Shown: positions 2,951 through 16,932 of the stretch, one piece after another
Layout of the letters: every line of letters starts with the position of its first letter
Position numbering within the stretch: the first letter of the stretch is position 1
From: a virus
Length of the DNA stretch: 24,066 bases
IMG/VR virus record: IMGVR_UViG_3300038360_000332
Span: 1 to 24,066 of that record
Reading direction: 5' to 3' (one strand)
The notes under the pieces: model-generated
What the model saw: only the letters and a program-made list of their open reading frames with translations
The model's database searches: none
What the model was told of the DNA's origin: nothing
Program-made: the position numbers and the translations under genes

Positions 2951-3336
2951 TGCCTATCGGTGCCTGGGACACTGCTGAAACCTCTGGAGCCTGGGAACAA
3001 TGGGCTGACCCCCATCACCCTACTGCCGCCCCTTCAGGCCTGACCTGGGGCGTTGCCCACACTGACGTACACAGGCGCATGGGCATTGTCATGGGCATCG
3101 TCCATCACGGGGACAAGTATCTGTGGAAGTTGCAATGGAAGTACCTCACCGAAGCGGAGATTCTCGTCATCAGGGATTGGTGGACCTCCAGGCTTTTCCA
3201 ATTCTCCCCCGCTTACAATACTGTCACCCCCTCCTCCAGCACTTGGTACGATGTCCTCTGGAGGGAGAAAGAGTTTAAGCCTGTCCCCCAGAGAGGGTGC
3301 ATGTATGCTCTCACGGCGACCCTTGAGGAGATCTGA
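2950..3336 (+). CDS. Small phage tail protein (minor tail / distal tail type)
   Basis: This 128-residue protein starts inside the tape measure stop (TAATG) and ends one base into the next gene (TGATG). It is rich in Trp and contains a pattern seen in small tail proteins downstream of tape measures: KLQWKYLTEAEILVIRDWW, then an aromatic strand, then WREKEFKPVPQ and a C-terminal YALTATLEEI beta strand. It probably forms part of the tail-tip complex joining the tail tube to the large tip protein encoded next. The family assignment rests on gene order and this pattern only; a specific gene name is not justified. Confidence 0.8.
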   Translation: MPIGAWDTAETSGAWEQWADPHHPTAAPSGLTWGVAHTDVHRRMGIVMGIVHHGDKYLWKLQWKYLTEAEILVIRDWWTSRLFQFSPAYNTVTPSSSTWYDVLWREKEFKPVPQRGCMYALTATLEEI

Positions 3337-6300
3337 TGGCCACTGACAGATGGATTCAGGTCCCACAGGGCTGGCTCGACCACTTCTCTTCCAGGTCAAC
3401 CTCTGTCGGCCCAGCCAATATCTGGATCTACACCCGCCCCTACGAGGGCGGGGCTCTCAGTCGGATAACTGACCATGAGGAATTGCTGTCGTGCGATGAC
3501 TTTGCATGGTCTATCGATTTTGAGAAATTCGGAGGCCTCGGCAAAGGCAAAGACACCTCCTTCGTCTTCACCAAGAAGACCGACTATTTCACCACGACCC
3601 TCACCAAAGACCAGATCGGTGACGATCTTGTCGTGTATGTCCGGTTCGGGGATGCCGACTTCGATGACGGCTCCTTTGGGATGAGAACCTTGTTTGTCGG
3701 TCGCATCACCGAGATCAAATACGAGGAAGACAGTACCGTAGAGATCACGGCGCACCACCACTTCGAATGGTCCATGGACAACGAGGCTCCTGATGATTGG
3801 TATGCCCTCACTCCCGACAGGTACGTCTCAAGCCCCAAGACCTTCAAGGGCCGCGACCCCGGTCAAGGAAACTTCATCCTCAATGACCAGATCGAGGATT
3901 CTGAGCGGTGGGAAGATGCCGACCTAACAAACTACGATGCGAACTGGCCGAAGACATACTCTGTCTGGATAGAAGAGGACGTTAACGACTGGTGGTACAC
4001 TGACACTAGCTCTGGTGGACCCCGGATATGCAACAGGGAAGGCAACACGCCATACGCCTACACCTGCGTCGATGACAACCGATCACTCGTTGTCGTTAAG
4101 ACCCAGGGGCATACCATCAGCGGGACCTGGGACACCGATGTCCAGAGCGGCCTGAATTGGTTTGGTGCCTATCACCCCTTCACCTCCGACCCTCCTTACG
4201 GGACCCAGACCGCCTACCTGAATGAGATCTACTACTGCATCACCCCACCAGCAATCAAGTACGTTGATGGCACAGGGCAGACGCCACCACTCGGCCTAGT
4301 AAACCAAGGCGCTACGGCGCTCGTCAGTGGGGGCTGCTCCGCATGGTCTGGGCCATCCCCCTCCAAGGGTTCCAGGAAGCCCCGTGGCGCTGATGTCTGG
4401 AAGGTGCATTTCCAGGAGGACACGCCGGTTGGAGATGGCAATGACGGGGTAACACATCCGATCTTCCTCCCGGACAGGATTGAGAGGCCCTCCCTCTCCG
4501 AGGGTAATCCGATTTCTGGCGCACGGTTCAATAACTGGCGGCTGTTCGGCATCAGGCAGGCCGCTGGGCTCAACAACAATGTTTGCCCCCACATGGGTTG
4601 GGACCCTGGGGGCAACCACAGCTACAGCCATCATGCATACGACTACTACCCCTGGAAGGTTAAGAAAGAGAATGGCGCGTGGGTGGACGATGCCCATGGC
4701 TGGATCTCCTACGCGGCCACATTCATGGACCTCAAGGAGGAGAACCAGTCGCTCTGGCCGGATGTAAGGCAAGGCCCAGGCGATGTTGCAACAAGCTGGC
4801 CCAGCGGTGACAAGGATTCACCATGGCTGAGAGTCGCCTATTGCCCCGGGCAACGCTGGTTAACTGGCATCAGCGGCATGGTGTGGCCAGGGTCGGCTGT
4901 GGTGTCCACCAGGGACGAGCCATGCCAGCTTATATACTCTGTCCTCTCCAAGGTGTGGAGGTACGGTAGGCCTCCCACCTTCGACATCGACACTGGGGTC
5001 TCCTCTGGGATAACCGGTGAGGACCTGTTCTGGCCCGATGGCGCTCACACCCTGACCACAGGCTCCTATGACAATTCTTATTCCTGGGTTGGTCAACAGT
5101 ATTACCAGCGGGACGCCAACCGATGGCCCGGGTCTTCTAAGTTCCAGGACCAACGTGGTGTGCGTGTCGGACTAACCGAGGCTGACATCACCCCCAAGGA
5201 GGCCTGGAAGAAGCCCATAGAGACTTTGTGTCGCGGCCTGGGCTTCTATGTGTTCTCCACCCCCTGGGGCGGGGTTGATGTCTGGTGCCAGAACGGTAGC
5301 CCTGGAGCCGGGGATAACAATTGGACTTTCTCTGCCGACCTGAGTGGCGACACACCGTTGCCTGGGGACCAGACAACCAGGAACGTCTGGGGTGTCGAAT
5401 ACGATTGGCATGACTGGAAGGTTGTCGAACATGTCGAATACAGGTACAGAGCCCTGTACGAGGAGACCATAGACCTGGAGTCCCCAGGCTTCATGCCGAC
5501 CGGCGTGATCAACACAGAGTCTCGGTCGGTGAAGTCCTCCTTAACGCCTACAGGGTTCAGGACAAAGCCGAAGCGTTTCGGGTCCGGGCAAGGGTTGGTC
5601 TTTGATGTAGGGTCGGACCCAGACGACACAACCTGGGTCCAGGGGATCTCTGATGATATCAACGCCCTGTATGGCACCCTTCATTCCAGCATCTCCTTCT
5701 CGACAACCATCGATGCCTTCTGGGATGACAGCAACGAATACTTCATGCGAATTGGCAGCGGGTTCTACTTCACCGACGCAGAGGCCGGTGTCAGCGGGTT
5801 CTACTGGGTGACCGGATTTTCCATGAACATCATCGCTGGCACCATGGAGATCTCTGGTGTCAGTGCTGGTGCCGAACCAGGCGTCTATGACCCTGTGACC
5901 GATGACCCTGCACCCTTGACCATCCCAGCGAACATTGTCATGACTGCCCCTGTCAGCACGACTGTCCATTCTGAAGGCCTCCTCTACAATATTGGCTGGG
6001 GCAACCTTACCGGCACCACGCTCATATCTGGAGATCCTGAATTCTCCCTGGATTGGGGCAGTGGGATCTACGACCTCCGTCATTACGAAACCGTAAGGCC
6101 GGTAGTTGCATTCACCCCGACCGGCGTGGGTACCTTCACCGGATACATCACCTTCTCCGGTGGCGACCATGGCATCATTCCGATAAATGGAACCGGCTGG
6201 GCACCAAGCCCCAGGGGGCTAACCAGCATAGACTTCAACCCTACCGATATGGGCAGGGGGTCTCAGGAGACCTGGATAGTCTCCAACACCTCGCCGTCGG

Positions 6301-6599
6301 GGTCTCCAGCACTGTCTTCCGTGGTATCCCTCACCAATGACAGCAGCAAGAACGCTTTCTCCATTACCTCGGCAGACAAAAACAAAGTTCCACAGTATCA
6401 GATGTATGTAGAGGCCGGTAGCGGCACGGACTCTATCGAGGTCTCCTTCTGGCCGACTTCCTCTGGCGTTCACACCGGGACTCTTTGGACAGACTTCCCG
6501 GCCCCTCATAATGAGATAACCTTGAGTGGTATGGGGGTCGATCCAAGGGCAGATTCTGCCGCAAGCACTTCCTCCATCTTCTTGCTCATGGGAGGCTAG
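3336..6599 (+). CDS. Large tail-tip/baseplate hub-like protein with C-terminal ASH (choice-of-anchor D) repeats
   Basis: This 1087-residue structural protein lies in the position of a tail hub or tip protein. The first 150 residues form an acidic beta-rich domain (strands around VFTKKTDYFTTTLTK and RTLFVGRITEIKYEE) like hub proteins. The middle is unusually rich in Trp, Tyr, Asp and Gly. Residues about 860-1066 hold two Ig-like repeats of the ASH/HYDIN choice-of-anchor D type: each has an FTPTGVGTFTGYITFSG or FWPTSSGVHTGTLW strand pair followed by a closing strand (IIPINGTGW, EITLSGMGV). Such repeats are usually adhesion or scaffolding modules on surface proteins, so I infer contact with host or capsule. 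A Ser/Ala tail ends the protein. The start overlaps the previous stop. Confidence 0.82.
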   Translation: MATDRWIQVPQGWLDHFSSRSTSVGPANIWIYTRPYEGGALSRITDHEELLSCDDFAWSIDFEKFGGLGKGKDTSFVFTKKTDYFTTTLTKDQIGDDLVVYVRFGDADFDDGSFGMRTLFVGRITEIKYEEDSTVEITAHHHFEWSMDNEAPDDWYALTPDRYVSSPKTFKGRDPGQGNFILNDQIEDSERWEDADLTNYDANWPKTYSVWIEEDVNDWWYTDTSSGGPRICNREGNTPYAYTCVDDNRSLVVVKTQGHTISGTWDTDVQSGLNWFGAYHPFTSDPPYGTQTAYLNEIYYCITPPAIKYVDGTGQTPPLGLVNQGATALVSGGCSAWSGPSPSKGSRKPRGADVWKVHFQEDTPVGDGNDGVTHPIFLPDRIERPSLSEGNPISGARFNNWRLFGIRQAAGLNNNVCPHMGWDPGGNHSYSHHAYDYYPWKVKKENGAWVDDAHGWISYAATFMDLKEENQSLWPDVRQGPGDVATSWPSGDKDSPWLRVAYCPGQRWLTGISGMVWPGSAVVSTRDEPCQLIYSVLSKVWRYGRPPTFDIDTGVSSGITGEDLFWPDGAHTLTTGSYDNSYSWVGQQYYQRDANRWPGSSKFQDQRGVRVGLTEADITPKEAWKKPIETLCRGLGFYVFSTPWGGVDVWCQNGSPGAGDNNWTFSADLSGDTPLPGDQTTRNVWGVEYDWHDWKVVEHVEYRYRALYEETIDLESPGFMPTGVINTESRSVKSSLTPTGFRTKPKRFGSGQGLVFDVGSDPDDTTWVQGISDDINALYGTLHSSISFSTTIDAFWDDSNEYFMRIGSGFYFTDAEAGVSGFYWVTGFSMNIIAGTMEISGVSAGAEPGVYDPVTDDPAPLTIPANIVMTAPVSTTVHSEGLLYNIGWGNLTGTTLISGDPEFSLDWGSGIYDLRHYETVRPVVAFTPTGVGTFTGYITFSGGDHGIIPINGTGWAPSPRGLTSIDFNPTDMGRGSQETWIVSNTSPSGSPALSSVVSLTNDSSKNAFSITSADKNKVPQYQMYVEAGSGTDSIEVSFWPTSSGVHTGTLWTDFPAPHNEITLSGMGVDPRADSAASTSSIFLLMGG

Positions 6600-6600
6600 G

Positions 6601-6930
6601 ATGGCCGACACCTACAAGATCCTCTGTCAGGTAGTCCCACTGGCGACCACCGAGACCACCATCTACACGGTACCGGCCTCCACCTCGGTCGTCATCTCAT
6701 CGCTGGTGGTCTGCAACCGTGGCGCAACCTCTTCCACGTTCAGGGTGTCCATTGCAGAGGATGGTGACGCTACCGGCATCACCGATTACCTCTACTACGA
6801 TGTCACGATCCCCGGGAATGACACCTTCATTCTCACAGGAGGGCTTACCGCTGGCGAGACCGATGAGTTCAGGGTCTATGCCTCTTCGGGGAACCTCACA
6901 TTCCAACTCTTCGGATCGGAGGTCACCTGA
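6601..6930 (+). CDS. Conserved small phage structural protein, beta-sandwich-like
   Basis: This 109-residue protein starts one base after the previous stop, with GGAGG just upstream. It opens with YKILCQVVPLATTETTIYTV, then SSLVVCNRG, YLYYDVTIPGNDTF and a C-terminal VYASSGNLTFQLFGSE. This order of motifs recurs in small proteins found among tail or head-decoration genes of many environmental phages, normally annotated only as hypothetical structural proteins. It is predicted to be all beta. Position between tip and fiber genes suggests a tail fiber accessory or decoration protein. A longer reading from an upstream start would overlap the tip gene and has no ribosome-binding site. Confidence 0.8.
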   Translation: MADTYKILCQVVPLATTETTIYTVPASTSVVISSLVVCNRGATSSTFRVSIAEDGDATGITDYLYYDVTIPGNDTFILTGGLTAGETDEFRVYASSGNLTFQLFGSEVT

Positions 6931-7823
6931 TGGCCCAAGGCTTTACCAGTACGAGCAGTTCGGGTGGCGTCGATACAACCGCCATCCACAAGGCCACCGC
7001 CGCCGAGATCTCTGCCCTCACCGAGAAGGCCACCCCGATTGCCGCCGACCTCTTCATCATCGAAGATTCTGCCGACTCCAACAGCAAGAAGAAGGTCCAG
7101 CACGGGAGCATCGACCACAATGCACTGACGAACTTCGCTGCCGGGGAACACCGGATCATCAACGATGGCGGGACCAGTTCAACCGAGCTTTACAGTGCCT
7201 CCAAGATCAGCACCGAGATCGACGCAAAGGTGACCGGCGCTGCCTCCGGGACCGACAATGCTCTGACCAGATTCAACGGGACCAACGGGAAGATCATCCA
7301 GGACAGTGGCGTGATATTGAATGACGCTGACAGCCTATCCGGCATCGTGAACATCACCCTCTCCGGCACGGTGGATGGCAGGGATGTTGCCACCGATGGC
7401 TCCAAGCTCGATGGCATCGAGGCTGCCGCCGATGTGACCGATGCCACGAATGTCGCTGCGGCTGGCGCGGTGATGAAGCAGAAGTACAAGAAGATCATCC
7501 ACATCGAGAACGGCGACGGCCTCAGTGCCACAGACACATGGCCGGTCTTCTCGGTACCCTTCGCTTGCACGATCACCAGGATCACCCACATCACTGATAC
7601 CGGGACGGTTGACTGGAACCTGGAGGAGAGGGCCGAGGCCACACCCTTCACGGCTGGCACCGATGTCTACGCCTCCGACGAGCAATCTAGCAGCACCAAC
7701 TCGGTGGACACCAGCTTCGCCAATGCCTCCCTGGCCGCTCACGCTGGCCTGGAATACGTTGCGAGTGCAGTGTCCGGTACACCGACGAAACTCCGAATTC
7801 AGATCAGCTTTGAGGAGGCTTAG
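6930..7823 (+). CDS. Tail fiber-like protein
   Basis: This 297-residue protein overlaps the previous stop by one base (TGATG). The N-terminal 60 residues include the ADLFIIEDSADSNSKKKV pattern common in fiber proteins that trimerise on a hub. Residues about 145-180 carry GTVDGRDVATDGSKLDGIEA, a repeat motif found in many phage tail-fiber shafts. The C-terminal 110 residues are beta-rich with Thr/Ser and probably form a trimeric knob. Role: host recognition at the tail tip (inferred from motif and context). Confidence 0.83.
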   Translation: MAQGFTSTSSSGGVDTTAIHKATAAEISALTEKATPIAADLFIIEDSADSNSKKKVQHGSIDHNALTNFAAGEHRIINDGGTSSTELYSASKISTEIDAKVTGAASGTDNALTRFNGTNGKIIQDSGVILNDADSLSGIVNITLSGTVDGRDVATDGSKLDGIEAAADVTDATNVAAAGAVMKQKYKKIIHIENGDGLSATDTWPVFSVPFACTITRITHITDTGTVDWNLEERAEATPFTAGTDVYASDEQSSSTNSVDTSFANASLAAHAGLEYVASAVSGTPTKLRIQISFEEA

Positions 7824-7825
7824 GG

Positions 7826-8041
7826 ATGATCATCAACCCAGACCACCGACAGTATGTTGCGGCCCTGGAAGACCTACAGTCCATCTATACCAACTTCAAG
7901 GACCGGTACCACCCGATCATGAGCCGGATGACCGAGGAGCAATTGCGATGGCTGTACCAGCGTGACCCCCTACTTCGGGAGTTCGTGAAGATTGCAAAAC
8001 AGGTCGGCAATTTTGCCGATAGGGCGGGGATACAGATATGA
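7826..8041 (+). CDS. Small hypothetical protein between fiber genes
   Basis: This 71-residue, mainly alpha-helical protein begins two bases after the fiber stop with GGAGG in the preceding codons. It has no transmembrane segment. Sequence features are a Tyr/Arg-rich helix (KDRYHPIMSRMTEEQLRWLY) and a second helix ending FADRAGIQI. It overlaps the next gene by ATGA, so it is translated as part of the fiber operon. It might be a fiber chaperone or small tail component, but I do not recognise a family. Confidence 0.75.
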   Translation: MIINPDHRQYVAALEDLQSIYTNFKDRYHPIMSRMTEEQLRWLYQRDPLLREFVKIAKQVGNFADRAGIQI

Positions 8042-8427
8042 TCACTGAGAAGAACTTCTTCGGTGAGACCGATCCAGATGTCGGCGGTGAGACCGAGTTC
8101 ACCAATTGCAATTTCGCGCATCCACAACCTGTCCTCGATGGCGCTGATTACATCGGTGTCCGTGTCTTCCCTGGTGATGACACACCCAGGACCTTCACTC
8201 GCTGCAATCTGGTGAACTGCGAAGTCCCTCCTGGCAGCACCATGACCAAGTGCAACAGAGCGATTGTTCGCAGGAACGTTGTCACCAACTCCGAGGACAT
8301 TGTAATCGGTGCCGAGACCATCACGGTGGAGATCAAAGCCAACCTTTGCTATGGCCACCAGATCGGCCCCGGGATCTACAACTACTACGCCGTGCCGTCT
8401 GAAGACGGGATCGACCCGGAGGAATAA
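8038..8427 (+). CDS. Beta-helix-like tail accessory protein
   Basis: This 129-residue protein starts in an ATGA overlap and ends in TAATG with the next gene. It has spaced Asn/Cys ladders: FTNCNF, FTRCNLVNCEVPPGSTMTKCN, then VIGAETITVEIKANLCYG. Repeats of this kind are typical of short right-handed beta-helix or pentapeptide-like turns, and similar short proteins sit beside fiber or spike genes. It is probably a fiber tip or spike accessory. The Cys residues fall at ladder positions rather than in a metal-binding CxxC pattern. Confidence 0.75.
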   Translation: MITEKNFFGETDPDVGGETEFTNCNFAHPQPVLDGADYIGVRVFPGDDTPRTFTRCNLVNCEVPPGSTMTKCNRAIVRRNVVTNSEDIVIGAETITVEIKANLCYGHQIGPGIYNYYAVPSEDGIDPEE

Positions 8428-9470
8428 TGGCCACCTACTACGTTGACACTGCTGTCGGGAACGATGGGAACGCTGGCACCAGTGAAGGTGCTGGCAACGC
8501 TTGGGCCACCATCGACCACGCCATGAACACCCTCTCCGCTGGTGATCACATCTACGTCAAGGCCTCCGGCGATTATACCGAGATGGCGACCATCGACACC
8601 GCTGGCACGGCATCCGCCTCGGTCATCATCGAGGGTTACACATCAACCCCCGGCGACGGCGGCATGGCGACCATCGACGCCACGGGCCTGAATAATGGCA
8701 TCTTCTACACCACCTCGACCTACCAGTATTATGCCTTCAGGAACATCACGGTGGAGAACGCCGACTATGACGGGTGGAACCTCTCCAGCCGGTACCTCAT
8801 CATGTTCGAAAACTGCCAAGCCCTGAATTGCGGAATCCGTGGGTTCGACACTGGGGGGTTCACCAGCTTTGTCGATTGCGTGGCCACGGGCAATTCCAGT
8901 GATGGCATCTATGCCGAGAACGATATCAAGGTCATCGGTGGAGATATCAGCGGCAATGGCGGGTATGGAGTCCGGTGTCCTGGGTACAGTGGTGTTGCCT
9001 TCGGCGTGATGGCGAACTCCAACGCAAGCATCGGCCTCCAGGTCAGGCGTGGTGGCACTGCGATCAACTGCACCGTTGATGGTGACAGCAAGGACACTGG
9101 CTCCGGCGTGGACTTCTCGGGCTACTCAGACTTTACCCATGTCCTCGTCAATACCATCATCTACGACTGCGTGAATGGGATCAACGGAGATGCGACCCCA
9201 TGCAATGGGTTTGCCATTGGCCGGAACAATCTCATCAACGGGAACACAAACCAGTATGTCAACTGGGAGACGGATGCCCAGGCCACAGACATCACAGATG
9301 CGCCTGGGTTCACGGCAGAGGGTAGCGACTACACCCTTGGGGCAAGCTCCGCTGCCAGGAACGCCGGGTATGATGGCAGTGGGTCGAGTTCCCCTGGCAT
9401 GGACATCGGCGCTCATCAGTCTGCCGATGCTGGTGGAGGGGGCGTCACCACTGTGGTCATCACCGGGTAA
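8427..9470 (+). CDS. Right-handed beta-helix tail spike/fiber protein
   Basis: This 347-residue protein begins MATYYVDTAVGNDGNAGTSE, the start expected for pectate-lyase-like parallel beta-helix (DUF1565-type) repeats, followed by AWATIDHAMNTLSAGDHIYV. Repeated coils rich in N, G, V and I (FENCQALNCGIRGF, FVDCVATGNSSDGIYAEN, VIGGDISGNGGYG) run to about residue 300. The end reads GSSSPGMDIGAHQ, a common C-terminal closure of such helices. It may bind or degrade a host surface polysaccharide, but no catalytic residues can be assigned by eye. It is the last structural gene before the lysis gene. Confidence 0.85.
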   Translation: MATYYVDTAVGNDGNAGTSEGAGNAWATIDHAMNTLSAGDHIYVKASGDYTEMATIDTAGTASASVIIEGYTSTPGDGGMATIDATGLNNGIFYTTSTYQYYAFRNITVENADYDGWNLSSRYLIMFENCQALNCGIRGFDTGGFTSFVDCVATGNSSDGIYAENDIKVIGGDISGNGGYGVRCPGYSGVAFGVMANSNASIGLQVRRGGTAINCTVDGDSKDTGSGVDFSGYSDFTHVLVNTIIYDCVNGINGDATPCNGFAIGRNNLINGNTNQYVNWETDAQATDITDAPGFTAEGSDYTLGASSAARNAGYDGSGSSSPGMDIGAHQSADAGGGGVTTVVITG

Positions 9471-9479
9471 AGGAGCCAC

Positions 9480-9995
9480 ATGCTCTCCCCACATTTTGGC
9501 CTACATGAGTTCACGAAGGCGTCGGTCGGGAGGAAGAAGTTCCAGGTCAAGCTGTCCTCGGTGGGGTATTACCTTGCCGAGAGACTCGCCCTCGACATTC
9601 TTGAGCCTGTCAGGGTCAATGAGGGACGGCCAGTCCGGGTGACCTCTGGGGCACGGTCCTGGGCAGTCTATGATGCGATGGTCAAGGACCGAGAAGGCAC
9701 GAACAAGAGCAAGCCCTCAAAGAGGTCCGACCACTTCTACGCCAACCATGTCCATCCCTATGGAGTTGGGGCTGCCGACATCACCTTCCACGGTATCGAC
9801 CCCTTGCACCTGATCGCCTGGATCATGGCCGAGGGGATTCCAGTGGGTCAGGCAATTGCTTACCCGTCCAACAGGTTCGTCCACCTCTCCAACCCAAGGA
9901 CTGTCCTGTTCGCCCTGGAGGCCATTGAGGTCTTGCCGCCGAAGGCTCGGTTCCTGGTCTGGACACCCGACTTGGGATACAGGAACCTTGCCTGA
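9480..9995 (+). CDS. Endolysin-like peptidase, M15 (D-Ala-D-Ala carboxypeptidase/VanY-like) family
   Basis: This 171-residue zinc peptidase probably cuts peptidoglycan peptides. It has the M15 architecture: RVTSGARS at 53-60, then SDH at 83-85 and GVGAAD at 95-100, and a third ligand in RFVHLS (His135). The ligands I infer are His85 or His92, Asp100 and His135. An insertion (FYANHVHPY) separates the first His from the Gly-x-Ala-x-Asp part. There is no signal peptide, so release would need a holin; none is adjacent. The start has AGGAG six bases upstream. Position directly after the fibers fits a lysis gene. A structural role as virion-associated lysin is also possible. Confidence 0.85.
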   Translation: MLSPHFGLHEFTKASVGRKKFQVKLSSVGYYLAERLALDILEPVRVNEGRPVRVTSGARSWAVYDAMVKDREGTNKSKPSKRSDHFYANHVHPYGVGAADITFHGIDPLHLIAWIMAEGIPVGQAIAYPSNRFVHLSNPRTVLFALEAIEVLPPKARFLVWTPDLGYRNLA

Positions 9996-10020
9996 CAATG
10001 CCATGAGACTGATAGTCATG

Positions 10021-10106
10021 TCAACCCCTTTCCCCCCTCCTCTCCCCTTCCCCCCCTCCCCCTTACAATCCCCCTCCCCCCTAACCCCCCTCCACCCCCC
10101 AATCCC
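10021..10106 (+). terminator. G-free polypyrimidine tract; candidate Rho-utilisation site after the late operon
   Basis: These 86 bases contain no G on the + strand and are almost all C and T, with runs of five to seven C. They lie just after the endolysin stop, in a 250-bp gap that lacks a hairpin-plus-T terminator. C-rich, G-poor RNA is the hallmark of Rho-dependent termination sites, so I infer that the late transcript ends here. The complementary strand has many G runs of four or more and could form G-quadruplexes. Confidence 0.5.
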
Positions 10107-10173
10107 GTAAAGGCGAAATGTCTTTCCGGTAGAGATTCTAATTTTATGGCTGACATTAGTATCAAAATGGATG

Positions 10174-10202
10174 TTGACATGTTTGCCAGCATTCGGTATT
10201 CT
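10174..10202 (+). promoter_or_regulatory. Sigma70-type promoter for the recombination/replication block
   Basis: A perfect TTGACA at 10174-10179 is followed after 17 bases by TATTCT at 10197-10202. It lies 44 bases upstream of the start of the first gene of the block (10246) and immediately after the polypyrimidine tract, so it can begin a new transcript. Confidence 0.6.
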
Positions 10203-10245
10203 GTGCCTCGGACACCCGGAAAAGACAGACCGTATGGAGGGAACG

Positions 10246-10482
10246 ATGACAGATGGATACACAGTGCTGGGCGTGAACAAGGATGTTGCCGATGCCTGCC
10301 GCAAGGTGGCAAAAGACAGGGGCATCTCGATCAAGGACTTCATGTCCGACACGCTCTTGACCAACCATGAGATTTGGGAAGCCTACAAGGCCGGTGTCGC
10401 TGCCAGGGGTGGCCTCACCGATGATCTCAAACAGCCCGTTGTCGAACCTCCCCGGGTCAAAGACTCATACATGGGAGAGTGA
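10246..10482 (+). CDS. Putative ribbon-helix-helix (CopG/Arc-like) small protein
   Basis: This 78-residue protein starts at the ATG preceded by GGAGGGAACG; a longer reading from 10171 would run through the promoter. Residues 5-40 (YTVLGVNKDVADACRKVAKD then GISIKDFMSDTL) fit a short strand followed by two helices, as in ribbon-helix-helix DNA-binding proteins. The C-terminal half is charged and Pro-containing. It is the first gene after the promoter and precedes the Rad52-like gene by three bases. It may regulate this operon. The RHH assignment is by pattern and only moderately sure. Confidence 0.75.
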   Translation: MTDGYTVLGVNKDVADACRKVAKDRGISIKDFMSDTLLTNHEIWEAYKAGVAARGGLTDDLKQPVVEPPRVKDSYMGE

Positions 10483-10485
10483 GAG

Positions 10486-11406
10486 ATGGAGACTGACCTG
10501 AAGCAGTTCGGCATACCGGACAACTTCCCGATAGTGATCAATACCGACTCACCTGACTGGGAGACCAGGGCCAAGTTGCAGGCCCCCTTCCCGGCTCATG
10601 ATGTCGAATGGAGGATTGATCGGGTTGGCAAGAAGCGCGGTGGAGGTATTTGGGCGAAGATCCTTGCCTACATCAATAACCGCGCAATCATGAACCGACT
10701 CGATGATGTCTTCGGCCCCTTGGGCTGGGATACCGTCATCGCCCCGGTTGGCAATGGTGGCTTCCTTTGCACCATCACGGCAGGAGGAGTAGGCAAGACA
10801 GACGGCTCCGAGGTGACCAACTTTGCAGCCTTCAAAGGCGGCATCTCTGGTTCGATGAAGAGGGCCGGTTCTCAGTGGGGCATTGGCCGATACCTGTACT
10901 ACCTGGAGGAGGGCTGGGCACAGATCGATAGCTCCTCATCCCTGGTGACCCCCAACTTTGCCAACGTCAATCTGGCCAAGAAGGGCCAAGCCGCCGATTG
11001 GGCGAAATTCTACTGGGGGCCTCCCGAGATGCCGTCCTGGGCCTTGCCTCCTGAAGGCTTTGTGAGGGTCCCTGGGAGCGCGGTGTTGGCCGCTGGGTCA
11101 TCCACTGTGATAGGTGACGAGGATGGAACCCCAACGGCCCCTCAGGTGGACACAGACGGCTATGCCACGAAGAAGCAGATGTACTTCATCCATGGTCTGG
11201 CCAAGGAGCGCAAGACAGCGGAGGCTCTCAAGGACCCCGAGTTTGTGGCCATCTACGAGAAGTATGTCCAATGGGTCAACGAGGGCCGGGAACGCAAGGG
11301 TGGCAGGGTGGCTGACACCGTACCCTTCAAGGCGATGGCCTTGACAGACTCAGAGGCCGACAGGGTGATTGAGGTCCTTGAAAGTTGTTCGAAACACCCC
11401 GAGTAG
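10486..11406 (+). CDS. Rad52/Sak-family single-strand annealing protein
   Basis: This 306-residue protein looks like a phage Rad52-superfamily recombinase, which coats single-stranded DNA and anneals complementary strands. Signature segments are AYINNRAIMNRLDDVFGPLGW, a beta strand region FLCTITAGG, and SGSMKRAGSQWGIGRYLYYL, which match the Rad52/Rad22 core of Sak-like proteins. The core spans about residues 35-180. The C-terminal 100 residues (KKQMYFIHGLAKERKTAEALKD onward) form a helical domain that may bind partners such as SSB. GAGAGTGAGAG supplies the ribosome-binding site. An SSB gene two genes downstream supports the role. Confidence 0.88.
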   Translation: METDLKQFGIPDNFPIVINTDSPDWETRAKLQAPFPAHDVEWRIDRVGKKRGGGIWAKILAYINNRAIMNRLDDVFGPLGWDTVIAPVGNGGFLCTITAGGVGKTDGSEVTNFAAFKGGISGSMKRAGSQWGIGRYLYYLEEGWAQIDSSSSLVTPNFANVNLAKKGQAADWAKFYWGPPEMPSWALPPEGFVRVPGSAVLAAGSSTVIGDEDGTPTAPQVDTDGYATKKQMYFIHGLAKERKTAEALKDPEFVAIYEKYVQWVNEGRERKGGRVADTVPFKAMALTDSEADRVIEVLESCSKHPE

Positions 11407-11426
11407 AGGCTCGTGGTTTTGGCGGT

Positions 11427-11494
11427 CCCCAGGTAGGTCTCATCGCCTCCTCCAGGCCGTCTTTGATGCCCTGACCTGGGGATAGGGGCATTTT
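11427..11494 (+). promoter_or_regulatory. Possible pseudoknot/attenuator leader
   Basis: In the 102-base gap before the next gene, CCCCAGGT (11427-11434) can pair with ACCTGGGG (11474-11481). Separately, ATGCCC (11466-11471) can pair with GGGCAT (11486-11491), followed by TTTT starting within that arm. The two stems cross, so the RNA could form a pseudoknot or switch between a weak terminator hairpin and an alternative fold. The start codon lies 15 bases further on. Confidence 0.35.
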
Positions 11495-11508
11495 CTAACG
11501 AGGAGAGA

Positions 11509-11697
11509 ATGATGACCAAATCAGAGAGACACAGTGCGATGAAGAGAGTCCTGGCCAATGTGCCGAAGGAAGTCCTGTCTGGCATTGCCGGTGATCTGGC
11601 TTATGTCGGTGATGCCGATGCCCTGGTGGTCGTGGCCGACGCGATCAATCAGGCCACTGTCACGGCACCCGTCGAAACCGACCCCCTGGAGGCCTAA
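11509..11697 (+). CDS. Small hypothetical protein between annealing protein and SSB
   Basis: This 62-residue protein has a good ribosome-binding site (GAGGAGAG) just before two successive ATG codons; the second at 11512 is equally possible. It is helical at the N-terminus (KSERHSAMKRVLANVPKEVL) and Ala/Val-rich in the middle, without membrane or metal-binding features. It ends three bases before the SSB start, so it is co-expressed with recombination genes. I do not recognise the family. Confidence 0.7.
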   Translation: MMTKSERHSAMKRVLANVPKEVLSGIAGDLAYVGDADALVVVADAINQATVTAPVETDPLEA

Positions 11698-11700
11698 ACC

Positions 11701-12144
11701 ATGGCAAGCCTCAACAAGGTGACCCTGATTGGACGGTTGGGTCAAGACCCGGAACTGAAGACCTTCGACAACGGCTCCCAGGTGTGCAATGTTTCACTCG
11801 CCACCGACGAGACCTGGAAGGACAAGGACACCGGGGAGAAGAAGTCGAAAACCGACTGGCACAGGATCGACTTCTGGGGCAAGTTGGCAGAGATCGTCTC
11901 CAAGTATTGCCACAAGGGCAAACAGATCTATGTCGAGGGCTCGATCCACACCAGGAAGTACACGCAGGACGGTGTAGAGAAATATGCAACCAGCATCAAG
12001 GCCTACAAGATGTTGATGCTGGGGTCCAAGTCAGATGACGGTGGTGGGCAGACCGCTGCCCCCAGTGGAGGGGATTCCGGTCAGGTGACTGGTGGCCCTG
12101 GTGGAGATTCATGGCGCGATGAAGAGGATGATCTGCCCTTCTGA
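11701..12144 (+). CDS. ssb: Single-stranded DNA-binding protein (SSB)
   Basis: This 147-residue protein is a standard bacterial/phage SSB. The OB fold spans about residues 1-105: LNKVTLIGRLGQDPEL, then VCNVSLAT, WHRIDFWGKLAEIVSKYCHK and IYVEGSIHTRKY. A Gly/Ser-rich linker follows, and the C-terminus ends in the acidic tail DEEDDLPF, the known docking peptide for replication and repair partners. It binds ssDNA as a tetramer and would work with the Rad52-like protein and the phage initiator. The stop is followed by an intrinsic terminator. Confidence 0.97.
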   Translation: MASLNKVTLIGRLGQDPELKTFDNGSQVCNVSLATDETWKDKDTGEKKSKTDWHRIDFWGKLAEIVSKYCHKGKQIYVEGSIHTRKYTQDGVEKYATSIKAYKMLMLGSKSDDGGGQTAAPSGGDSGQVTGGPGGDSWRDEEDDLPF

Positions 12145-12202
12145 GTTGACATGGCGGTGGACCGTGGCCCATTCTTCCAATCTCTGTTCATCGCCTTCCG
12201 TG

Positions 12203-12238
12203 GCCCTGGTCGGACCTGTCTCCCGACCAGGGCTTTTT
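12203..12238 (+). terminator. Intrinsic terminator after ssb
   Basis: GCCCTGGTCGG (12203-12213) pairs perfectly with CCGACCAGGGC (12223-12233) across a 9-base loop, followed by TTTTT (12234-12238). This separates the annealing-protein/SSB unit from the genes downstream, at least in part. Confidence 0.9.
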
Positions 12239-12254
12239 CTATAGGGGTAATTCG

Positions 12255-12482
12255 ATGGACTGGAAACCCTGCTCATCCTGTGCATCACAGGAAATCCCGG
12301 ACATCACCAAGCACCGTGTCAGCGACATGGAATACAATGCCCAGGCAACGTGTTGGCAATGTGGAGCCGAGACGAAGGTCTGTTGGGCAAGGTGTGGTGG
12401 CTTTATAGAGGCTGAGATGAAGGCCATGTATCTGTGGAATTCTGGGGAGGTGAGAGCATCAAAAACATCTGGACAGTATTGA
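12255..12482 (+). CDS. Lar-like (restriction alleviation family) zinc-ribbon protein
   Basis: This 75-residue protein has Cys6-x2-Cys9 near its start and Cys33-x2-Cys36 (CWQCG) later, with further Cys at 43 and 47, then the segment AMYLWNSGEV. A CxxC, then CxxCG, then a terminal LWN(R/S) is the layout of Lar-family proteins, some of which counter host restriction enzymes. The actual function here is not shown. The ribosome-binding site is weak (AGGGG). The next promoter overlaps its 3' end. Confidence 0.75.
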   Translation: MDWKPCSSCASQEIPDITKHRVSDMEYNAQATCWQCGAETKVCWARCGGFIEAEMKAMYLWNSGEVRASKTSGQY

Positions 12483-12498
12483 CAATCCTGTATACAAT
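12470..12498 (+). promoter_or_regulatory. Promoter with GACAGTATT element and TGTATACA palindrome
   Basis: TGGACA (12470-12475), a 17-base spacer and TACAAT (12493-12498) form a promoter upstream of the GTG start at 12525. A second TTGACA lies at 12479. The -10 overlaps the palindrome TGTATACA (12489-12496), and GACAGTATT follows the -35. The same parts recur at 13.94 kb and in part at 15.0 kb. Confidence 0.6.
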
Positions 12499-12524
12499 GC
12501 CGACCTAGAGACAGGAGGCCCACA

Positions 12525-12779
12525 GTGCCAAAGAAGGAAGAATACATCCGGCCCGACAGAGGGTCTGCCGCCGAGGCCATGGAGGCCATCAGGGACCTTG
12601 CAAAGGCTCGATACAATACCCAGTTGGAAAAGGTCCCTTACAACTACATCAGGGGATGGATCATACCAGCGGTGCTGGAAGCCTTCCCGGGCCGGTGGGA
12701 CGAGAGAGAAGTCTACGACGAGTTCGCAATATTGAGGGGCCAGATGGATCGCCCCAACCGCGAACTATTCGGTGGTTGA
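12525..12779 (+). CDS. Small hypothetical protein upstream of the initiator gene
   Basis: This 84-residue protein uses a GTG start with ACAGGAGG eight bases upstream, directly downstream of a promoter. It is charged and helical at the N-terminus (SAAEAMEAIRDLAKARYN), then contains NYIRGWIIPAVLEAFPGRWDE, which could be a short DNA-binding or protein-binding module. It ends two bases before the O-like initiator start, so the two are probably co-translated. I cannot assign a family. Confidence 0.75.
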   Translation: MPKKEEYIRPDRGSAAEAMEAIRDLAKARYNTQLEKVPYNYIRGWIIPAVLEAFPGRWDEREVYDEFAILRGQMDRPNRELFGG

Positions 12780-12781
12780 GG

Positions 12782-13504
12782 ATGGATGAATGGACAGGAA
12801 ATCCACAGTGCGAAGACGGGTATGTAAGGATTGCCAACGAACTCTTCGAAGTCCTCATGGCAATGCCGATGACAGTGCGAGAATTCAAGGTCATGCTGGG
12901 CATCATGAGGATGACCTATGGGTGGAACAGGAAGACCGCGAGGCTGGTCCAGAAGAATCTCGCCATCATGACTGGCATCGATCCCACCAACCTCTCTAAG
13001 ACGATCAAGGCCCTCAGGGCCAAGGCTATGATTTTTGTGGATGAGAACCGCATGGTCACGGTCAACAAGAGGTACCGCGAATGGGTGGTCGGGGACATGA
13101 AGTTGTCCATCGAGACCACGTTCATCGGTGCCCTTCGGAAGAGGGGTCTGTGGAATGGCAAGAAGTCTGGCCTAGTCCCGGCTGATTGGGTCAGGTTGGC
13201 AAGGTGGGCTGGTGAGGTCGGCCTAGAGCCCTTTGTGGATAAGGTGGAGTCGAAGATGGCCAAGGTGAGAATCAACTCCCTTGGCTTCTTCTTTGCCGAC
13301 ACCCATGGGTCGTGTGTGTTTGAGAGGGTCTACTTCAGGGAGATGGAGGCGGCATGGGAGAGAGAAAAGCGCTCAGAGGCCGATTCGTTACCGCGAAGGC
13401 AGCACGAAGAGAACTCAGGGAGCTTGGCATCATCAAGGGACATTTTAAGGGGCTTGTTCGGCCAGGAGTTCGGGGAGACTCAGGAGCCCTTGTCGCAGGA
13501 GTAG
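12782..13504 (+). CDS. Replication initiator, lambda O-like N-terminal domain
   Basis: This 240-residue protein probably binds the phage origin and recruits helicase. Residues about 12-95 read as a phage replication protein O N-terminal winged-helix domain: GYVRIANELFEVLMAMPMTV, then FKVMLGIMRMTYGWNRKTAR, LAIMTGIDPTNLSKTIKALR and MVTVNKRYREW. The start at 12782 is preferred because it follows the previous stop; a longer reading from 12656 overlaps the previous gene. The last 50 codons overlap the next gene in another frame, an unusually long overlap. No helicase or helicase loader is recognisable nearby, so the host helicase is likely used. Confidence 0.83.
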   Translation: MDEWTGNPQCEDGYVRIANELFEVLMAMPMTVREFKVMLGIMRMTYGWNRKTARLVQKNLAIMTGIDPTNLSKTIKALRAKAMIFVDENRMVTVNKRYREWVVGDMKLSIETTFIGALRKRGLWNGKKSGLVPADWVRLARWAGEVGLEPFVDKVESKMAKVRINSLGFFFADTHGSCVFERVYFREMEAAWEREKRSEADSLPRRQHEENSGSLASSRDILRGLFGQEFGETQEPLSQE

Positions 13505-13938
13505 ACCCATCATCGCAAGGCCACTGCATCACTTTCATGCTCTCCAGTCCTCAAGTCCCCCAGTATTATTCCCTGCAAGTGGACAATGATACGTCGTCCT
13601 ATGCCAGCCTGTACCGACGGCTGGCTGAGTTGCCGGTGAACGATCACACCGTCTTCATCGAGGACGCCTACCTGGGACGAAACCCCAAGAGCCTCATCGT
13701 GGCCGTGACTGCACGGGCGAAGTTGCAGGTCATCTTTGAACTGGCTGGATGGAGGGTCGTGATGGTCAAGCCCTCGTCCTGGCAATCGCCAATTCTGAAA
13801 CAGGGCTGGGGGGCACACCGTCCAGAGTTGAAGGGCGCGGCCAAATGGTTAACCAAGCTCCTCACGGGGGAGAGCCCCAAGAGCGACATGTGCGACTCCT
13901 TCTGCATCTGCATCTATGGACGAGGAAGAAATTCTTGA
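13354..13938 (+). CDS. RuvC-like Holliday junction resolvase
   Basis: This 194-residue protein has the RuvC/RNase H-fold active-site pattern: Asp51 in VAGVDPSSQG, Glu103 in VFIEDAYLGRN, and Asp178 and Asp181 in SDMCDSF, with VVMVKPSSWQ between. It would cut branched DNA formed by recombination or replication before packaging. The core runs from about residue 45; the first 45 residues are basic and overlap the end of the initiator gene by 151 bases. GGAGATGGAGGCGG precedes the ATG, supporting this start, but a later non-ATG start cannot be excluded. Family fit is by motif and spacing. Confidence 0.83.
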   Translation: MGERKALRGRFVTAKAARRELRELGIIKGHFKGLVRPGVRGDSGALVAGVDPSSQGHCITFMLSSPQVPQYYSLQVDNDTSSYASLYRRLAELPVNDHTVFIEDAYLGRNPKSLIVAVTARAKLQVIFELAGWRVVMVKPSSWQSPILKQGWGAHRPELKGAAKWLTKLLTGESPKSDMCDSFCICIYGRGRNS

Positions 13939-13971
13939 CAGTGTTATCGTGTGTTGTATACAATTCTGTCA
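13935..13971 (+). promoter_or_regulatory. Promoter with flanking TGACAG/CTGTCA inverted repeat
   Basis: TTGACA (13935-13940) is followed by TATACA (13957-13962, 16-base spacer) or TACAAT (13959-13964, 18-base spacer). The -10 lies in the perfect palindrome TTGTATACAA (13954-13963). TGACAG (13936-13941) and CTGTCA (13966-13971) form an inverted repeat around the promoter, as expected for a repressor site. The next gene encodes a LexA-type winged helix. Confidence 0.65.
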
Positions 13972-13993
13972 GAACAATGGAGAGGAGGTGACT

Positions 13994-14284
13994 ATGACAA
14001 CAGTATGGAGAGGGAAGGAGGCGAGGATGGACAAGTGTCTGATTGCCTTCGCCCACCTGGCCAAGGAGAGGAAGTTCCCACCGAGCCTGAATGAGATTGC
14101 TGAAGAGATGGGCGTTGCCTATGCAACGGCTCACCTCGCGTGTGCCGATCTGATCGAGGCTGGCTTAATGGTGAGGGAAGTTCCGAATCAGGCACGATCC
14201 CTTTGTTTGACGGGTGATGGAAAACGCCGACTGCCAAGAGCGCGGTCGAGAAAGACGAGGGCCAATGGTGGAAGGGCGGCGTAA
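13994..14284 (+). CDS. LexA-type winged-helix DNA-binding protein without protease domain
   Basis: This 96-residue protein has residues about 15-65 (LIAFAHLAKERKFPPSLNEI, AEEMGVAYATAHLACADLIE, AGLMV) that match the winged helix-turn-helix of LexA's N-terminal domain. The autoproteolytic domain is absent and the C-terminus is a basic Arg/Lys tail (KRRLPRARSRKTRANGGRAA). The start at 13994 has the very strong site GGAGAGGAGGTG and lies 30 bases past the promoter; an upstream start would overlap that promoter. It is a candidate regulator of the shared promoter element. Target and ligand are unknown. Confidence 0.8.
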   Translation: MTTVWRGKEARMDKCLIAFAHLAKERKFPPSLNEIAEEMGVAYATAHLACADLIEAGLMVREVPNQARSLCLTGDGKRRLPRARSRKTRANGGRAA

Positions 14285-14633
14285 GCTCAGGCCTGAGGCA
14301 GAGGCTGCCTGGGACTTAATGGCCAGAGAAGTGGAAGAGATGCACGGGAAGACCGTCACCGACATCGGGCTTGGTGTGGTCAGGGATGAGGACGGCATTC
14401 CAGTGTCGGCCCTGATGTTTGGCATATCAGATGAGGGAGACAACTTGTGCCTCATCGAATGGGAGTATGCCTACAACTTCCACCAGGATGGTGAGTGCGA
14501 TTGTTTCGGGTGCCTACTGGAGGGCGACCCAGACGGGGCAATGTTCATGGCCGGTTTAGACTTCACCTGTTCAGAGGTGACGTTGATGTCCATGCCCCTG
14601 GAACGGGAGGGTGGCAGTGAAATGGTTCACTAA
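14265..14633 (+). CDS. Hypothetical acidic protein
   Basis: This protein has 122 residues from the ATG at 14265, overlapping the previous gene by 20 bases; an alternative ATG at 14214 would overlap by 71. It is acidic with a pattern of DEDGIPVSALMFGISDEGDN, LCLIEWEYAYNFHQ and a CDCFGC cluster that might bind a metal. No membrane segment is present. The end overlaps the start of a small membrane-protein gene. I do not recognise the family. Confidence 0.72.
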   Translation: MVEGRRKLRPEAEAAWDLMAREVEEMHGKTVTDIGLGVVRDEDGIPVSALMFGISDEGDNLCLIEWEYAYNFHQDGECDCFGCLLEGDPDGAMFMAGLDFTCSEVTLMSMPLEREGGSEMVH

Positions 14634-14760
14634 GATCCTCAAGCTGGCATACTTTCTACTGCGAGTCGCCATCTCATTAGGGGTGGCGATTCTCACAATC
14701 ATAGCAGGGGCGCTGATCGGTACATCATTCAAATACGACCCCTGGAAGGAGGAGCGATGA
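14617..14760 (+). CDS. Small single-span membrane protein (47 aa)
   Basis: A 47-residue reading starts at GTG (14617) with GGGAGG six bases upstream and ends in an ATGA overlap with the next gene, so it fills an otherwise empty 120-base gap. Residues about 10-37 (LAYFLLRVAISLGVAILTII then AGALIG) form one hydrophobic helix, preceded by a basic KWFTKILK segment and followed by a charged tail KYDPWKEER. The topology fits an inner-membrane miniprotein. It could be holin-like or a host-interaction peptide; position far from the endolysin makes a holin role only a guess. Confidence 0.68.
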   Translation: MKWFTKILKLAYFLLRVAISLGVAILTIIAGALIGTSFKYDPWKEER

Positions 14761-14996
14761 AGCTGCCCGGGAACCCGAACTGGAACCTACCCCCTGGAGT
14801 CACACCGTCGATGGTGGACAATGCCACGGAGGTGGAGGAGTGCGAAGAATGTGGCGAGGCCCTTGAAGAGAACAGTGACTGCAACCTCGTCTGCATGAAT
14901 GAGAATTGTGACGACTACGAGATCGACCGGATCGCCATGAAGGCCGATGATGACTATGACCGATGGAAGGACGATCAATTGATGGGCGACCGGTAG
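14757..14996 (+). CDS. Small acidic zinc-ribbon protein
   Basis: This 79-residue protein starts in ATGA overlap with the membrane miniprotein, with AAGGAGGAGCG as ribosome-binding site. Cys29-x2-Cys32 (CEECGEAL) and Cys42, Cys46 and Cys51 in DCNLVCMNENC suggest a zinc ribbon. The C-terminus is strongly acidic and helical (DDDYDRWKDDQLM). Such proteins often contact nucleic acids or host RNA polymerase, but no function can be assigned. It ends at the promoter at 15.0 kb. Confidence 0.78.
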   Translation: MKLPGNPNWNLPPGVTPSMVDNATEVEECEECGEALEENSDCNLVCMNENCDDYEIDRIAMKADDDYDRWKDDQLMGDR

Positions 14997-14998
14997 GT

Positions 14999-15041
14999 GT
15001 TGACAGTGGTGACAGTATTATCATATGATTACCCTGTCAAC
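14999..15041 (+). promoter_or_regulatory. Promoter flanked by GTTGACAG/CTGTCAAC inverted repeat
   Basis: TTGACA (15000-15005), an 18-base spacer and TATGAT (15024-15029) form a strong promoter for the gene at 15059. GTTGACAG (14999-15006) and CTGTCAAC (15034-15041) are a perfect 8-base inverted repeat enclosing it. A further TGACAGTATTATCAT (15010-15024) closely matches TGACAGTGTTATCGT (13936-13950). Confidence 0.68.
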
Positions 15042-15058
15042 CACAGAAAGGCGATAGA

Positions 15059-15598
15059 ATGTGGACAGCATCTGAACTTGAGACAGAGATCGACGATCTG
15101 ACATCACAGATCAACGATACCGTTTACCAATCACTCCAGAGTCGGGATTTCAGCCAACTGGAGGATGAGATCAGTGACCTAGTGACCCAGGTGGACAACT
15201 GCACAGGCAGGATCTCAGAGCTTGATGATGAGAACGAAGATGAACGCATCGATGGTGGGGCGAGGATCATGGTCGAGCGTGTTCGACTGGTGACGCCCTT
15301 TGGCCCTGAGATCATTGTCAATGACGGTGACAACCTTCAGGGGTACGAGATCGATGTGCCAATAGTGTGGGAGAATGACAGCATTCCCGACCACCTGAAA
15401 GCTGGCACCAACGGATGGGAACTCTCCTCCTATGGCAGCAAATGTGAGGTGGGGGACTCTCTCATGGAAGAGTTGGATGGCATGGTGGCGGCAATCACCA
15501 GACACCTGCATGACGCCTACAGGCTAGGCCTTGAGGATGGACGGGAGGGCAAACATCTGTTCACTAAAGGAACCGGATCGGTTGAAAGCCTCTCTTAG
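15059..15598 (+). CDS. Hypothetical coiled-coil protein
   Basis: This 179-residue protein lies directly downstream of a regulated promoter, with AAAGGCGA before the ATG. Residues 5-65 are heptad-like and acidic (ELETEIDDLTSQIND, LEDEISDLVTQVDN, ISELDDENEDE), a probable coiled coil. The middle is beta-rich (VERVRLVTPFGPEIIVNDGD) and the last 50 residues are helical (LMEELDGMVAAITRHLHDAY). It overlaps the next gene. It is probably a soluble phage-specific protein of unknown role. Confidence 0.76.
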   Translation: MWTASELETEIDDLTSQINDTVYQSLQSRDFSQLEDEISDLVTQVDNCTGRISELDDENEDERIDGGARIMVERVRLVTPFGPEIIVNDGDNLQGYEIDVPIVWENDSIPDHLKAGTNGWELSSYGSKCEVGDSLMEELDGMVAAITRHLHDAYRLGLEDGREGKHLFTKGTGSVESLS

Positions 15599-15896
15599 GG
15601 CTGTGAAGGCAGGGGACGGCATAGGCATCGAGAGCGCGGCGCAAGTGCTGGTGATCTTCTCCGATGCCATAGCCGCCAAATTCTGTGGCCCAAGCCTCAA
15701 TGGGCTGATCGATGGGATCAGACGCGAAGACAGTCTTGGCCTGTGGAAGGATGTCGTTGAAGTCGAGGATGAGGCTGGAGAGACCCAGAAAGTGTTGTGG
15801 TGGATCGAGGACTATCGAGAGATTCAGGGCTACCTCCCTTGCTCTTGTGTCTGGCTCCTCACAATCCAACTTGAAAGTGAGCGCACTGATGTCTGA
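15537..15896 (+). CDS. Hypothetical protein
   Basis: This protein has 119 residues from the ATG at 15537. Other starts are TTG at 15531 and TTG at 15582, the latter with AAAGGA upstream and a shorter overlap with the previous gene; the choice is uncertain. The core (KAGDGIGIESAAQVLVIFSD, AIAAKFCGPSLNGLIDGIRR) is helical and the end is Trp- and acid-rich (VLWWIEDYREIQGY). No motif is recognised. The stop overlaps the next start by eight bases. Confidence 0.65.
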   Translation: MDGRANICSLKEPDRLKASLRAVKAGDGIGIESAAQVLVIFSDAIAAKFCGPSLNGLIDGIRREDSLGLWKDVVEVEDEAGETQKVLWWIEDYREIQGYLPCSCVWLLTIQLESERTDV

Positions 15897-16170
15897 GAAG
15901 CACTGGGCAGACGCCATGACCAGGGAAGTAGGAGGCCACATCTTTCACGATGGTGTCGGCCTGTACGCCCAGATCACCCGAGACAGGCTCAAGAGGAGGC
16001 TCTGGGCCAGGGAGATATTACTCCGTGAGATGGCATGGTATGAATACCAACTGAAGGAAGGCAGTAATGGGAAAGAGAATTTCACTGATGCCCCTGCATC
16101 CAGCCATGGAGACCAGGAAGGCAGTCGAGACCCGGGTCAACGATACCCGGATAACGGTGAGGAAGCATAA
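15889..16170 (+). CDS. Hypothetical small helical protein
   Basis: This 93-residue protein starts at an ATG that overlaps the previous stop by eight bases. Residues 1-60 are mostly helical and basic (AQITRDRLKRRLWAREILLR). The last 33 residues are low-complexity, polar and charged, and lie entirely within the overlap with the HTH gene in another frame, so that tail may be under little constraint. The ribosome-binding site is weak. Function unknown. Confidence 0.6.
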   Translation: MSEKHWADAMTREVGGHIFHDGVGLYAQITRDRLKRRLWAREILLREMAWYEYQLKEGSNGKENFTDAPASSHGDQEGSRDPGQRYPDNGEEA

Positions 16171-16699
16171 CAGGGAGGACTTCGGCCAACTGGTGAAGGC
16201 CCTCCGTGAGACACATGGACACAAACAGAACTGGTACGGCAAGAAGCTCGGCAGGTCCTACGACTGGTTGAGCCGGATCGAGAGGGCTCACCACAAGAGC
16301 ATCAACCTCCAGGCTCTCCGTGGCCTTGAGAACATACTGGGCCTGGAGGAGGGCAAGCTGGTCTCCTGGGCCAAGTATTGTGGGTACTCCTTCATCATCC
16401 CCAAGGGGTACACGGTCTCGGCCTCTGTCACGGCCCTTGTCGAGGGTTACTGCAACAGTGAGAAGTTGCCGAAGTTGCCAGCCAAGGCCGACGACCTCCC
16501 ACTGTTCGAACCGAAGGTATCCACAGTCACGACCGGGATCGAAGTCCTGGAGTCGAGGTGTCTTGTGGTGGACGGGTGGACCCTTGAGGACTGTGAAGGG
16601 TACTGGAGCCTGAAGAACGACAAGAACGGAAAGGTTATGCCCATCCTCCACAGTGACATGGACAAGATCCTGGCTCTCTTCGAAAGGGCACAGTCATGA
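16067..16699 (+). CDS. XRE-type helix-turn-helix regulator
   Basis: This 210-residue protein carries a Cro/C1-type HTH at about residues 38-95: DFGQLVKALRETHGHKQNWY, GKKLGRSYDWLSRIERA, INLQALRGLENILGLEEGKL. The C-terminal 100 residues (TVTTGIEVLESRCLVVDGWT and after) are not the S24 peptidase of C1/LexA-type repressors, so it would not be cleaved during SOS. The start at 16067 has GAAGGAAGGCAG upstream but overlaps the previous gene by 104 bases; ATG 16109 is an alternative with poor ribosome-binding site. It overlaps the next gene by ATGA. It is a possible repressor for the phage operators. Confidence 0.8.
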   Translation: MGKRISLMPLHPAMETRKAVETRVNDTRITVRKHNREDFGQLVKALRETHGHKQNWYGKKLGRSYDWLSRIERAHHKSINLQALRGLENILGLEEGKLVSWAKYCGYSFIIPKGYTVSASVTALVEGYCNSEKLPKLPAKADDLPLFEPKVSTVTTGIEVLESRCLVVDGWTLEDCEGYWSLKNDKNGKVMPILHSDMDKILALFERAQS

Positions 16700-16932
16700 C
16701 CTTCGAAGAAGCCCAGAAGAGGGTGGGCCAGCGGGTCGAGAGGTTGGGCGAGGTGCGGCCCCATGTGTGGGAGCCGCTGGAGGAGGGCGTGATCATCGAG
16801 TGCGTCCCCGCCACTGAAGACAAGAAGGGTATAGTGTTCATCCGATGGGACGGCGAACCCTTCTCGGAGGCAAGTCGAGAGGATGACCTTGGGGCGATGA
16901 GGCCCTTGGGTAACTTGGAAGGAGGGCAGTGA
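16696..16932 (+). CDS. Small hypothetical protein, SH3-like beta fold possible
   Basis: This 78-residue protein begins in ATGA overlap with the HTH gene. A short N-terminal helix (FEEAQKRVGQRVERLG) is followed by strands EEGVIIECV and KGIVFIRWDGEPFSE. The pattern of short strands with a WDGE turn is compatible with a small SH3-like barrel, as in many phage nucleic-acid-associated miniproteins. That is only an impression. Its stop overlaps the next start. Confidence 0.75.
   Translation: MTFEEAQKRVGQRVERLGEVRPHVWEPLEEGVIIECVPATEDKKGIVFIRWDGEPFSEASREDDLGAMRPLGNLEGGQ

Follow-up and report, generated by a model that had tools for sequence, protein, structure and literature searches.

An 86-nt G-free tract as a candidate Rho-loading site at the late/early junction of an uncultured tailed phage

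How does a phage end its late operon when no hairpin terminator follows the last late gene? We addressed this question at one junction of an uncultured tailed phage. The stretch analyzed, hereafter the window, is an entire IMG/VR record of 24,066 bases. Read rightward, it carries the tape measure and endolysin genes in its left part and genes for Erf, SSB, an O-like replication protein and a RuvC-like resolvase in its right part; in an overlapping contig of the same phage, the portal, terminase, protease and major head protein genes sit to the left of the endolysin gene. At the sole late/early boundary in the sequenced part stands a C-rich tract that has no G on the + strand. The most likely reading, which we hold with moderate confidence, is that this tract would serve as the rut site (the RNA-loading part) of a Rho-dependent terminator ending the rightward late operon, with termination possibly helped by G-quadruplexes. 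The features around the junction, in window coordinates, are as follows.

9480..9995, + strand: endolysin gene, last of the rightward structural (late) region (PHROG 894, E 1.5e-15)
10021..10106, + strand: G-free C-rich tract, by its composition a proposed rut site at which Rho would load on late RNA, with G-quadruplex motifs on the minus strand
10105..10129, + strand: small RNA hairpin, candidate pause hairpin (-9.2 kcal/mol; z -2.31, uncorrected, for the best of four stretches folded)
10174..10202, + strand: sigma-70-like promoter TTGACA-17-TATTCT heading the early/replication genes (10/12 consensus positions)
10246..10482, + strand: small gene opening the rightward early operon (open reading frame; probable start from GGAGGG at 10236-10241)
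10486..11406, + strand: Erf-like single-strand annealing protein gene (PHROG 1097, E 7.3e-55)
11701..12144, + strand: single-strand DNA-binding protein (SSB) gene (PHROG 44, E 4.5e-52)
12202..12234, + strand: first strong intrinsic terminator 3' of the tract (-24.5 kcal/mol stem-loop, then TTTTCTATA)

Composition of the tract

On recount, the 86-base G-free run lay at exactly 10021-10106 of the + strand, where a first-pass annotation of the DNA had placed it. It consists of 59 C, 17 T and 10 A (69% C), contains nine C-runs of at least four and 55 YC dinucleotides out of 85, and is the longest G-free run in the window, the second-longest being 29 nt. The same annotation had called it near-pure C/T, which is slightly overstated: the tract is 88% pyrimidine, and the ten A remain. 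In 300 sequences simulated under a first-order Markov model, the longest run free of G or free of C had a mean length of 32 and a maximum of 50, and other viral contigs with a GC content of at least 0.5 held no G-free or C-free run of 60 or more in 709,811 bases (86 of the 105 loci with C-run tracts described below, with their own tracts and 100 nt around each cut out). The run was therefore not made by chance. Over 45 kb, made up of the window plus 20.9 kb from the left of the overlapping contig, the excess of C over G in the tract was 55 per 78 nt and that of the runner-up was 28, about half. It is the only tract of such a kind in these 45 kb of the phage. The tract is real, extreme in degree, ordinary in kind and well placed.

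Setting at the late/early junction

The tract starts 25 nt past the endolysin stop codon and ends 67 nt before the promoter. Its position after a lysis gene, proposed at first pass, is confirmed by the family match of the endolysin, and so is the proposed absence of a hairpin terminator, since a scan for strong stems found none between the endolysin gene and 12202. The window holds six strong rightward intrinsic terminators (12202, 17923, 20094, 20502, 23669 and 23992), and a seventh belongs to the left contig, some 6.4 kb ahead of the window start; between that one and window position 12202, the strong-stem scan found no other, and a looser scan gave weak stems only, the nearest on the + strand at 11400-11413. 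The tract thus takes the place of a late terminator. We rejected an intrinsic terminator at the tract itself because no strong GC-rich hairpin with a U-run occurs from the endolysin stop codon to 12201. The hairpin at 10105-10129, whose first two bases are the last two C of the tract and which 6 of 200 shuffles matched in stability, is not an intrinsic terminator either, as it has no U-run.

The promoter scan returned 4 sites versus 2.3 in shuffles, so the element at 10174-10202 is a consensus match only. Family searches with the small gene at 10246..10482 gave no match. Genes read leftward occupy about 18.2-22.6 kb, at a distance of 8 kb from the tract, where little leftward traffic is therefore expected. 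Coding strands differ in composition among the gene blocks: early rightward genes (10246-17900) are purine-rich (56.1%, GC skew +0.13), late genes (1-9995) are neutral (purine 50.4%, GC skew -0.015) and the leftward block is 54.3% purine on its own strand. Within that leftward block, 19056-19487 on the minus strand encodes a stand-alone RadC JAB-domain protein (Pfam PF04002, E 3.4e-35). The SSB and RadC proteins scored best with certain subfamily models, which we take to be proteobacterial, all scores being below the models' curated cut-offs. Rho is nearly universal in Proteobacteria.

The intrinsic terminators at 23669-23691 and 23992-24022 have G6/C6 arms, for example AGGGGGGAGGCCTTCTCCCCCCT, followed by a T-rich tail. 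The tract resembles them in being rightward and in sharing the kind of runs that they use. They, however, pair G arms with C arms and end in a T-rich tail, whereas the tract has C without G and cannot pair with itself.

Rho-dependent termination

Because the late genes run rightward, the late RNA would carry the C-rich sequence. If, as we infer, late transcription reaches the tract and the host Rho has its usual preference, termination would proceed as follows. Once RNA polymerase has passed the endolysin stop codon and the ribosomes have left, the RNA beyond would be ribosome-free, unstructured and C-rich nearly to the limit of what RNA can be; a host Rho hexamer would load there, travel toward the polymerase and release it within the next ~100 nt, perhaps during a pause at the hairpin at 10105-10129. 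Such termination would keep late transcription off the early promoter and the erf-ssb operon.

The authors of RhoTermPredict state, in excerpts of their paper, that Rho binds C-rich, G-poor, ribosome-free RNA of at least 70-80 nt, and they model its terminators as a 78-nt region with C>G and spaced C, followed within 150 nt by a pause site (PMC6407284). The tract resembles terminators of this model in length, in C>G composition (C59 G0 in 86 nt) and in regularly spaced C (it matches a regular expression for six C spaced 11-13). It also follows the last gene of an operon, and a hairpin whose stability most shuffles fall short of lies within 150 nt on its 3' side. Starting beyond the endolysin stop codon, the RNA would be untranslated, and it is predicted to be little structured: when 9970-10260 is folded, positions 10021-10106 stay mostly unpaired, and the total folding energy does not surpass that of shuffles (z 0.83). 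As a + frame stays open through the tract to 10110, translation of the tract from a chance start would be possible. On the + strand, 10107-10254 contained no complete GGN8YG pause element. In our re-implementation of RhoTermPredict step 1, a permissive scan that returned 115 sites on the + strand and 142 on the - strand in 24 kb, the tract was by far the top + strand site, with a C/(G+0.5) of 110 and the next site at 3.43.

By contrast, predicted E. coli Rho sites have a mean C/G of 1.6 in the excerpted text (PMC6407284), and a tract with 69% C and no G far exceeds what a Rho site needs. Unlike characterized Rho-dependent terminators, the tract is known from the sequence of an uncultured phage. 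Its extremity need not make it a strong terminator because, in the parts of the literature drawn on here, drop-off in E. coli was not predicted by the C/G ratio (PMC6407284) and the in vivo efficiency of rut sites was not predicted by Rho affinity (PMC9160355). In favor of the Rho reading, nearly all B. subtilis fragments with a high excess of C were Rho-terminated (PMC13323073). If it does terminate transcription, the tract would be a natural near-limit case for Rho loading, lacking G over 86 nt. It would then also be a clean part for separating the contributions of rut strength and of template quadruplexes, singly or together, to how efficiently transcription ends; published results on this question depart from the simple expectation.

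The first-pass annotation had proposed a Rho site, and position, strand, composition and the lack of an intrinsic terminator speak for it; conservation does not add to the case, as the scans turned up no diverged relative. When viral contigs were searched with the terminase, endolysin and tail (3336-6599) proteins, every match was to a contig of the same phage, at 100% (IMGVR_UViG_3300038358_000286 and, for the terminase query, also IMGVR_UViG_3300038304_000190); among viral contigs, neither the Erf protein nor the right-flank DNA pattern had a match. The phage records yielded nothing for the endolysin or the tail protein; for Erf, portal and terminase, all their protein matches were below 60% identity. 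Genome contigs yielded none with the endolysin and two distant relatives with SSB (40% and 51%). With no diverged relative for comparison among the viral contigs, phage records and genome contigs scanned, selection on the tract cannot be demonstrated.

G-quadruplex potential and polymerase direction

The potential of the minus strand to form G-quadruplexes, also noted at first pass, was upheld by prediction. Overlapping G3+N1-7 motifs, with the four G-runs expected of a quadruplex, extend across 10025-10106 of the minus strand, and G4Hunter gave a mean of -2.51 over the 86 nt and -3.04 in the best 25-nt window, versus extremes of -1.96 and +2.08 elsewhere. Shuffles of the same letters had 6.0 C-runs of at least four, versus nine in the tract; 2.3% of shuffles reached nine and 0.36% reached its G4Hunter value. 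The Cs are thus more clustered than composition alone would give.

The proposal that such structures block leftward polymerase had the orientation reversed. Rightward polymerase reads the G-rich minus strand as its template, and for leftward polymerase it is the non-template strand, so quadruplexes in it would hinder rightward, not leftward, polymerase. In vitro, T7 RNA polymerase is blocked by template-strand quadruplexes and transcription is enhanced by non-template ones, the block being complete only when quadruplexes are pre-folded (excerpts of PMC7341879). The tract is like those blocks in having many G-runs in the rightward template strand; by contrast, the published block concerns an in vitro T7 RNA polymerase template (PMC7341879, excerpts), and the quadruplexes of the tract are predicted. 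A replication fork moving leftward would have the G-rich strand as its lagging template, and quadruplexes in the tract may hinder such a fork.

Alternative explanations

Might the tract act mainly as DNA, with one or two template-strand G-quadruplexes stalling the rightward RNA polymerase or the leftward fork and insulating the early promoter without Rho? The extreme G4Hunter values, the motifs throughout the minus strand, the excess clustering of Cs and the published in vitro block are all in keeping with this, but slippage could also give the clustering, duplex DNA competes with quadruplex folding, the polymerase used was that of T7 with its dependence on pre-folding, and no relative shows that the G-runs are kept. 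We regard this explanation as rather unlikely. An arrangement in which both activities combine, the RNA providing an ideal Rho-loading site while quadruplexes in the G-rich template stall the same polymerase and give Rho time, appears more doubtful still; if true, the tract would work in one direction, terminating rightward transcription strongly and leftward transcription weakly, with no terminator hairpin involved. A serious rival, albeit one that we also think unlikely, is a neutral low-complexity stretch whose C/T runs grew by slippage in a tolerant spacer and have no role. The tract contains an imperfect repeat (18 nt, 78%, 34 nt apart), as slippage might leave, it is like C-run stretches found inside open frames of other contigs (L011 and L105), and 91 distinct C-run tracts from viral contigs show no orientation bias. 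Yet it is the sole such tract in 45 kb of phage, it stands exactly at the late/early junction, it does not consist of a simple tandem array, and an idle stretch of 86 bases is seldom retained in a phage genome.

Two further explanations concern the integrity of the sequence. A second assembly, IMGVR_UViG_3300038358_000286 (30,944 nt), is identical to window positions 1-10078 (10,078 nt) and ends inside the tract, so that the first 58 of the 86 nt are present in two assemblies, and the final 28 nt, together with the junction to the right half, in that of the window alone. C-rich tracts do break assemblies, and an artefact or a false join of two sequences at the C-rich stretch would fit this reliance on a single assembly, but the presence of 58 nt in both argues against it, as does composition: the tetranucleotide distance between the left and right sides of the tract was 0.168, other within-phage comparisons gave 0.137-0.164, and the nearest of 43 other loci stood at a distance of 0.249 (right side) or 0.247 (left side). 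The two sides have about the tetranucleotide composition of one genome, and we consider an artefact very improbable. We give equally little credence to a physical genome end or packaging site at the tract, on which the 30,944-nt contig would terminate at window position 10078 for that reason. The ends of some linear phage genomes do lie at junctions of this type, where late genes end and early genes start. The window sequence, however, continues straight through, the terminase gene is more than 20 kb away, a search for a cos-like or repeat structure found none, and contigs stop at such tracts generally (19 of 105 versus 2.1 expected). Since contig ends at similar tracts are common, the break is most simply an assembly effect.

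Other identities for the tract or its surroundings were discarded. For H-DNA (a mirror-repeat triplex), the best mirror was 14/15, which 16% of shuffles matched; a comparison with Rfam gave 0 matches; the region 12600-13600 with the O-like gene held one 12-nt pair only and no iterons; and the cumulative GC skew, whose minimum at the tract had seemed suggestive for the window by itself, reached its minimum elsewhere once the tract was removed and the left part added.

C-run tracts in other viral contigs

A pattern search for tracts like the candidate Rho site recovered 105 viral contigs with 91 distinct tracts. After stop codons (stop-to-stop frames of at least 150 codons, 14 of the 105 tracts dropped for identical sequence), 9 were C-rich and 8 G-rich on the sense strand. 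With no strand bias, C-run tracts are not generally sense-oriented terminators and lend no general support to a terminator role. The two tracts examined in detail (L011 and L105) lie within open frames. We ruled out the 105 contigs as relatives of the phage because tblastn with 35 of its proteins gave only four weak matches (three SSB and one ParB-like protein). One practical warning is that contigs of metagenomic phages are prone to end at C-rich tracts, the 19 ends counted above lying at most 150 nt from a tract.

Upstream of its terminase gene, the overlapping contig of the phage (L005, 9697-11404 on the minus strand) encodes a ParB-like protein and carries a gene resembling queuine tRNA-ribosyltransferase. 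Eight of the viral contigs (L046, L047, L057, L076, L085, L091, L093 and L110) have in common the motif CCCCCTCCCCCTAT(T/A)ATCCCCCTCCCCC, apparently an element conserved in some other group of phages.
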